Shown one piece after another: positions 1,478 to 8,616 of a stretch of 17,827 nt of DNA; the stretch's first letter is position 1, and each line of letters starts with the position of its first letter. The notes beneath the pieces were generated by a model. It had not been told where the DNA came from. It ran no database searches and saw nothing but the letters and a program-made list of their open reading frames with translations. The position numbers were made by a program, and so were the translations under genes. The DNA is from Nitrospinota bacterium (GTDB taxonomy: Bacteria > Nitrospinota > Nitrospinia > UBA9942 > JAHJSF01): assembly GCA_018830405.1 (NCBI GenBank), contig JAHJSF010000088.1, positions 1 through 17,827 on the forward strand, written 5' to 3'.

Positions 1478-1653
1478 CCCAACTCCGCCGTCTCATTTTT
1501 AGGATTGGAATAGGTTGATTGAGGAGGCAAGCCTAAAACTGTTTGAGCGAAGCGAGTTTTTTAGGCTCCAAAATCAACCGTAATTTCAAGCCGTCAAAAA
1601 ATGGGTAGGCGGCAGTTTCTTTGTTTCGTTTCTTGTCTGCACAAGAAATGAAG
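1478..1653 (+). repeat. Structured dispersed repeat, copy B (complete, ~176 nt)
   Basis: This is homologous to 8439-8616 on the other strand. In sense order it holds a conserved 5' block (1485-1504), then a nested stem-loop. The outer stem is 1505-1511 with 1583-1589, the middle stem is 1513-1520 with 1572-1579 (perfect 8 bp), and the inner hairpin is 1530-1540 with 1555-1567 (11 bp, two-base bulge). A linker (about 1590-1623) with GGCGGCAGTTTCTTTG follows, then a 3' hairpin: arms 1624-1636 and 1641-1653, loop CTGC. CCGCC (1485-1489) could pair with GGCGG (1608-1612) to close the whole. It has no coding capacity. It lies between the genes at 831-1430 and 1662-1997. Confidence 0.85.
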
Positions 1654-1661
1654 GATAAAAA

Positions 1662-8353: not shown

Positions 8354-8438
8354 ACGACGTCTCCATATATGTTTATATTTACAGCCTCCTAACGATAACA
8401 GAAAAGGTAGTGACCCGCAAAACAAATTGGTTTTTCTT

Positions 8439-8616
8439 CTTACTTTCTTGTGCAGACAAGAAAGTAAGCAAAGAAACTGCCGCCTGCTGATTTTTTTAAC
8501 GGCTTGAAACTAAGCCTCCTTAAAGCGCCTCAAAAACTCGCTTTGCTCAGACAGTTTGAGGCTTATTTCTTTAAAGAGCCTGTTTCAATCCTAAAAATCA
8601 GATGGCGGGAATTGGG
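8439..8616 (-). repeat. Structured dispersed repeat, copy C (complete, ~178 nt)
   Basis: This full copy has its sense on the minus strand and matches copy B throughout its conserved blocks. The 3' hairpin is a perfect 13-bp stem (8439-8451 with 8456-8468) around a 4-base loop. The nested stem-loop has outer 8504-8510 with 8582-8588, middle 8518-8525 with 8569-8576 (one G.U on the sense strand), and inner 8527-8538 with 8553-8562 with the same two-base bulge as copy B. The middle stem has unrelated sequence in the two copies yet pairs in both. It lies between divergent etfB and galT. No T-run follows the hairpin, so it is not a simple terminator. Confidence 0.85.

Follow-up and report, generated by a model that had tools for sequence, protein, structure and literature searches.

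A dispersed bacterial element of ~175 bp with a nested hairpin and a proposed triple-helix pseudoknot at its 3' end

The window examined here, the whole 17,827-nt contig C63 of a Nitrospinota MAG (1.42 Mb in 185 contigs, 87% complete), contains copies of a dispersed element of ~175 bp. The GalT protein has its nearest counterpart in Nitrospinota. We consider it probable that this element is non-autonomous and works as one folded strand, most likely RNA, which combines a nested hairpin with a 3' triple-helix pseudoknot module. What is chiefly new in our analysis is the proposed triple-helix pseudoknot.

A DNA search of the whole source genome gave 39 matches, of which 29 were near full length and alignable; identity of copies to the query copy was 72–89%. 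An earlier note on this DNA had described two complete copies; both are real (1480–1660 on the + strand and 8432–8613 on the − strand), but the number was too low, and collecting the genomic copies showed that the element is not limited to these two. It is non-coding, and its ends are sharp across copies. The core of the first copy, CCGCC...GAAGGATAAAA, occupies 1485–1660 (+), and the element actually starts with the CCGCC block at ~1485 rather than at position 1478, where the earlier note had placed its 5' end. The window also holds a 5'-truncated copy that retains only the 3' pseudoknot module (2030–2103, +) and the 5' fragment of another copy, cut off by the contig end (1–30, −). All 29 aligned copies were intergenic, in both orientations. 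Flanking genes of the 26 classifiable copies were oriented (−,−) in 10 cases, (+,−) in 8, (+,+) in 6 and (−,+) in 2; thus, the element bears no constant relation to sense transcription. We found neither target-site duplications nor empty sites at the copies, and there was no sign of recent movement.

The long nested hairpin domain spans 1485–1612 (+), its outer stem pairing 1485–1489 with 1608–1612, as indicated by covariation helices 1–5 and by folding. In the 29-copy alignment, 96.7% of the cells in a 53-pair structure were standard pairs, and sliding the pairing partners as a control lowered this value to 42–59%. Two-sided changes occurred at 21 of the 53 pairs, compared with 9.4 ± 1.9 in shuffles. 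The middle stem, GGTTGATT (1513–1520) with AATCAACC (1572–1579), accounted for such changes at 7 of 10 pairs (feature 1513–1579, +), and the alignment bore out that its arms in copy 2 are unrelated in sequence and nevertheless pair. The inner hairpin (1531–1566, +) has the loop GCGAAGC, and in other copies this hairpin is lengthened by an extra stem, e.g. GAGCAAGGCGTAGCCTTGCGAG. The paired substitutions that had been noticed between two copies recurred among the 29: A1535-T1562 versus C-G was AU in 22 and CG in 6, and in the 3' hairpin the C1627-G1650 versus A-T change was confirmed beside an adjacent pair that was G.U in 12, C-G in 11 and U-A in 4.

The fold was specific to one strand. Wobble cells over the whole element, counted genome-wide, comprised 65 G.U on the sense strand versus 9 A.C (G.U on the other strand), so that the one-strand bias seen in two copies holds throughout and the strands are far from equal. 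The 3' stems of relatives gave a ratio of 24:5, sense versus other strand. RNA-fold z-scores of the two full copies were −5.1 and −6.2 for the sense strand and −2.7 and −4.3 for the antisense strand; they indicated a fold that exceeds chance and were stronger on the sense strand. Folding with DNA parameters was also significant, with z-scores of −5.5 for the sense and −3.5 for the antisense strand. We see strong support for selection acting on a single-stranded, strand-specific fold. For the fold itself, the earlier claim of selection on RNA is borne out by the 29 copies together with the relatives from other phyla; that the strand is a transcribed RNA is less well supported, because the DNA-parameter fold is also stable and 10 of 26 classifiable copies are antisense to both flanking genes.

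The 3' hairpin (1624–1653, +) has arms at 1624–1635 and 1642–1653 and a loop at 1636–1641, with 99.4% paired cells. Its recognition in the earlier note was correct but incomplete, since the loop belongs to a pseudoknot that had been overlooked. The loop pairs with a short strand located after the long hairpin and before the 3' hairpin, which makes an H-type pseudoknot: the 5' strand GCAG (1612–1615, +) covaries with the loop, where CTGC (1637–1640) forms the 3' strand. In copy 2 the corresponding strands lie at 8477–8480 and 8452–8455 (+ strand coordinates). GCAG/CTGC of the window is replaced in other copies by GCGG/CCGC, GTGG/CCAC, CGGG/CCCG, TGTC/GACA, CGTC/GACG or TGCC/GGCA. Of the 85 distinct strand/loop combinations collected across all sources, 56 formed at least four consecutive Watson-Crick pairs, compared with a mean of 8.2 and a maximum of 18 for re-dealt loops, a comparison that carries no formal probability because related sequences are non-independent.

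Between the pseudoknot strand and the hairpin lies the linker TTCTTT (1617–1622, +; 8470–8475 in copy 2), which is the parallel (Hoogsteen) complement of the stem purine strand AAGAAA (1643–1648) and which we propose as a Hoogsteen third strand. Linker and stem runs shift jointly in relatives: TTTCTTTT/AAAGAAAA, TTTTCTTT/AAAAGAAA, TTTCTTT/AAAGAAA and TTCTTTT/AAGAAAA. Because our module search patterns demanded TTCTTT, TTTCTT and AAGAAA, ascertainment leaves only the run lengths, flanks and loops unaffected; for run lengths, the T-run after the C equalled the A-run after the G in 34 of 34 and 36 of 37 modules outside the source genome. Joint run changes were seen between two modules within one Pasteurella element and in one odd Ilyobacter copy. 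Among 58 asymmetric modules outside the source genome, 56 fit the parallel order, 42 fit that order only, and none fit the antiparallel order only; this parallel order differs from both the direct-repeat and the Watson-Crick order. The asymmetric runs of the same 42 modules rule out that the linker match arose through direct repetition of the stem strand. In the source genome, 3 of 33 modules were not fully consistent with a triple helix. From these sequence patterns we infer that the 3' module may form a telomerase-like major-groove triple helix of T(U).A-T(U) and C+.G-C triples. The telomerase RNA pseudoknot places a pyrimidine linker in the major groove of its stem, where the linker pairs with the 3' purine strand. 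The proposed module resembles it in topology, and we claim no homology. No description of the 3' module was found in the open-access literature, by sequence or by topic.

Elements ending in the same 3' module also occur in Desulfobacterota, Burkholderiales, Gammaproteobacteria and Fusobacteriota and on Clostridia-like phage contigs; the pattern search for the 3' module recovered the last of these, which have the same architecture. BLAST, for which consensus strings served as leads, added relatives in Burkholderia, Caballeronia, Paraburkholderia, Variovorax, Pseudoalteromonas, Aeromonas, Pasteurella and Ilyobacter. The 3'-module pattern matched 45 of 395 Desulfobacterota genomes with up to 142 copies per genome, compared with at most 3 per genome for a reversed-pattern control. 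The distribution across phyla was patchy: when Nitrospinota relatives were searched by DNA sequence, covariance model and pattern, the element turned up only in the source genome. A distant BLAST with the complete element as query gave no match among plasmids and phages. The hairpin domain changes fast, and the 3' module is constant between phyla. The inner hairpin CTGTTTGAGCGAAGCGAGTT, or a similar one, is common to the window element, Variovorax and some Desulfobacterota copies, and the module also sits behind a GAGCGnAGCGAG hairpin type. In Caballeronia it occupies both outer ends of a palindromic unit of ~0.6 kb, and solitary halves are also present; on plasmid pNK81 of Caballeronia sp. 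NK8 we observed nine inverted module pairs ~461 bp apart within such units (e.g. 186689–187183), with lone halves elsewhere. Inverted (−)(+) pairs also occurred in Variovorax and Pasteurella. One 3' module in a phage structural operon (L155, 3011–3285) directly adjoins a GP20-b RNA (RF03003).

We compared the element with known RNA families and repeats. Rfam searches, run on the window at the gathering threshold and on four copies with E values of up to 10, returned no match for the element, in agreement with the earlier statement that it belongs to no named family; that statement does not extend to its relatives, two of which are named (TwoAYGGAY and Bp1_684). TwoAYGGAY (RF01731) is likewise multi-copy, and in Pseudoalteromonas (L161, L173) its long hairpin is followed on the same strand by the same type of 3' pseudoknot module, which falls outside the stretches covered by the Rfam model and is not in the Rfam definition. 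An Aeromonas locus has a TwoAYGGAY-like hairpin below the Rfam threshold and then the same module. In contrast, the window element has a single nested hairpin whose loop is of the GCGnAGC type, has no AYGGAY loops and does not match RF01731. One Pseudoalteromonas piscicida locus (L173, 389–2573) carries seven TwoAYGGAY-like hairpins in alternating orientation within a tandem repeat of ~748 bp period. Bp1_684 (RF02421) begins in the 3' arm of the module hairpin, on the same strand, in Burkholderia and Caballeronia, whereas the rest of its model covers the downstream end of the unit found in Burkholderiales, which the window element lacks; the covariance model had no match in the window or the four copies. 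The corresponding Burkholderia sRNA candidate, Bp1_Cand684, is reported as RT-PCR-validated (PMC3521395) and overlaps the outer end of a related Burkholderia element. TwoAYGGAY and the window element appear to belong to one cross-phylum group through the 3' module, and the window element is a new subfamily of this group, itself no TwoAYGGAY RNA.

REPIN/BIME repeats are also intergenic, palindromic and, as in some relatives, arranged in inverted pairs, but their units measure 20–40 nt versus ~175 nt, and the window element is pseudoknotted without a linked RAYT. The bcr1 repeats of the Bacillus cereus group are also short and intergenic, are predicted to be structured and show features of mobile elements (PMC2267715 and references therein). 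The likeness is by description only, and bcr1 is Bacillus-specific. To our knowledge, bcr1 has no 3' pseudoknot module. The HEARO / IscB guide RNA gave no Rfam match in the window or four copies, and integron attC sites were dropped because the element copies are dispersed in both orientations.

The active strand is probably RNA rather than DNA. We favoured RNA because of the wobble asymmetry, the same-strand Rfam motifs and the reported RT-PCR product of the Burkholderia candidate (PMC3521395); single-stranded DNA keeps some weight because of the inverted module pairs, the absence of target-site duplications and the stable DNA fold. In our judgment it is unlikely that the element is REP/REPIN- or IS200-like, with an HUH Y1 transposase moving it in single-stranded DNA form. 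The GCGnAGC mini-hairpin loops of the element, a type unusually stable in DNA, are consistent with this mechanism, as are the inverted pairs of Caballeronia, Variovorax and Pasteurella and the significant DNA-parameter fold, whereas the size and pseudoknot differ from REPs and the distribution of the enzyme argues against it: of 16 Desulfobacterota genomes rich in the element, 5 lacked Y1_Tnp (28, 13, 6, 5 and 4 copies of the element), and Y1_Tnp was found in nearly all tested genomes without the element. The single Y1 gene of the source genome has ends unrelated to the element, being flanked by GGGGTCAGGTCTTGCA repeats instead. This gene (L031, G000:C26, 1363–2342) is bounded by inverted GGGGTCAGGTCTTGCAATG repeats, the left of which is tandemly duplicated. 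RVT_1 reverse transcriptase was absent from the source genome (87% complete) and from 9 of the 16 element-rich genomes, TnpB was absent from the source genome, and a profile search of that genome for IscB (RRXRR) gave no match, as did its controls. The genome searches did not support Y1 transposase, IscB, reverse transcriptase or TnpB as partners. One genome with 13 modules (G448) had no Y1 transposase, no reverse transcriptase and only a sub-threshold TnpB match, which points to a mobilising activity beyond the identified enzymes.

Two other readings make the element a functional RNA. That it is a trans-acting sRNA family, e.g. CsrA-sequestering as proposed for TwoAYGGAY (PMC4333381), and multi-copy by function, seems to us improbable: the shared 3' module and the RT-PCR validation reported for the Burkholderia relative (PMC3521395) speak for it, and yet the window subfamily has no AYGGAY loops, its internal-loop GGA is not conserved in the 29-copy alignment, and its dozens of copies in random orientation are missing from all sampled phylum relatives. 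We hold it very improbable that the element acts in cis within 3' UTRs, stabilising or terminating adjacent transcripts. At least one gene end faces 24 of the 26 classifiable copies, the divergent class being rare (2/26), but in 10 of 26 both genes run antisense to the sense strand of the element. No U-tract follows the 3' stem on the sense strand, for which reason an intrinsic terminator was also rejected.

Under the favoured interpretation, a dispersed element that works as a folded single strand, likely RNA, the linker would lie in the major groove of the 3' hairpin stem and form a triple helix, and the resulting pseudoknot would be a rigid 3' cap. The pseudoknot could serve as a recognition handle for a trans-acting enzyme that spreads the copies, and the variable hairpin may be a spacer or a host-specific part. 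More tentatively, we suggest as a possibility a cross-phylum class of mobile elements, unified by the 3' triple-helix pseudoknot and spread through RNA by an enzyme not yet known, of which TwoAYGGAY and the Burkholderia candidate would be fragments. The combination of triple-helix pseudoknot and variable hairpin provides a testable structural definition for repeats in many bacterial phyla, and the element links two Rfam families whose function is unknown and ties together sequences that had been unconnected.

Several observations concern the surroundings of the copies. A second repeat, GGATTCCCGnTTnCACGGGAATGAC, lies within ~30 nt 3' of several copies (3' flanks of L002, L003, L004, L011, L014, L020 and others), and CCCCCTTTnCTAAAGGGGG-type hairpins lie 3' of other copies. 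In the window, a DUF6988 gene (831–1442, −) adjoins the element and matches the PADLOC candidate PDC-S52. On contig C119, a SIR2_2 gene is located between two inverted copies, with a ParE-like gene nearby.
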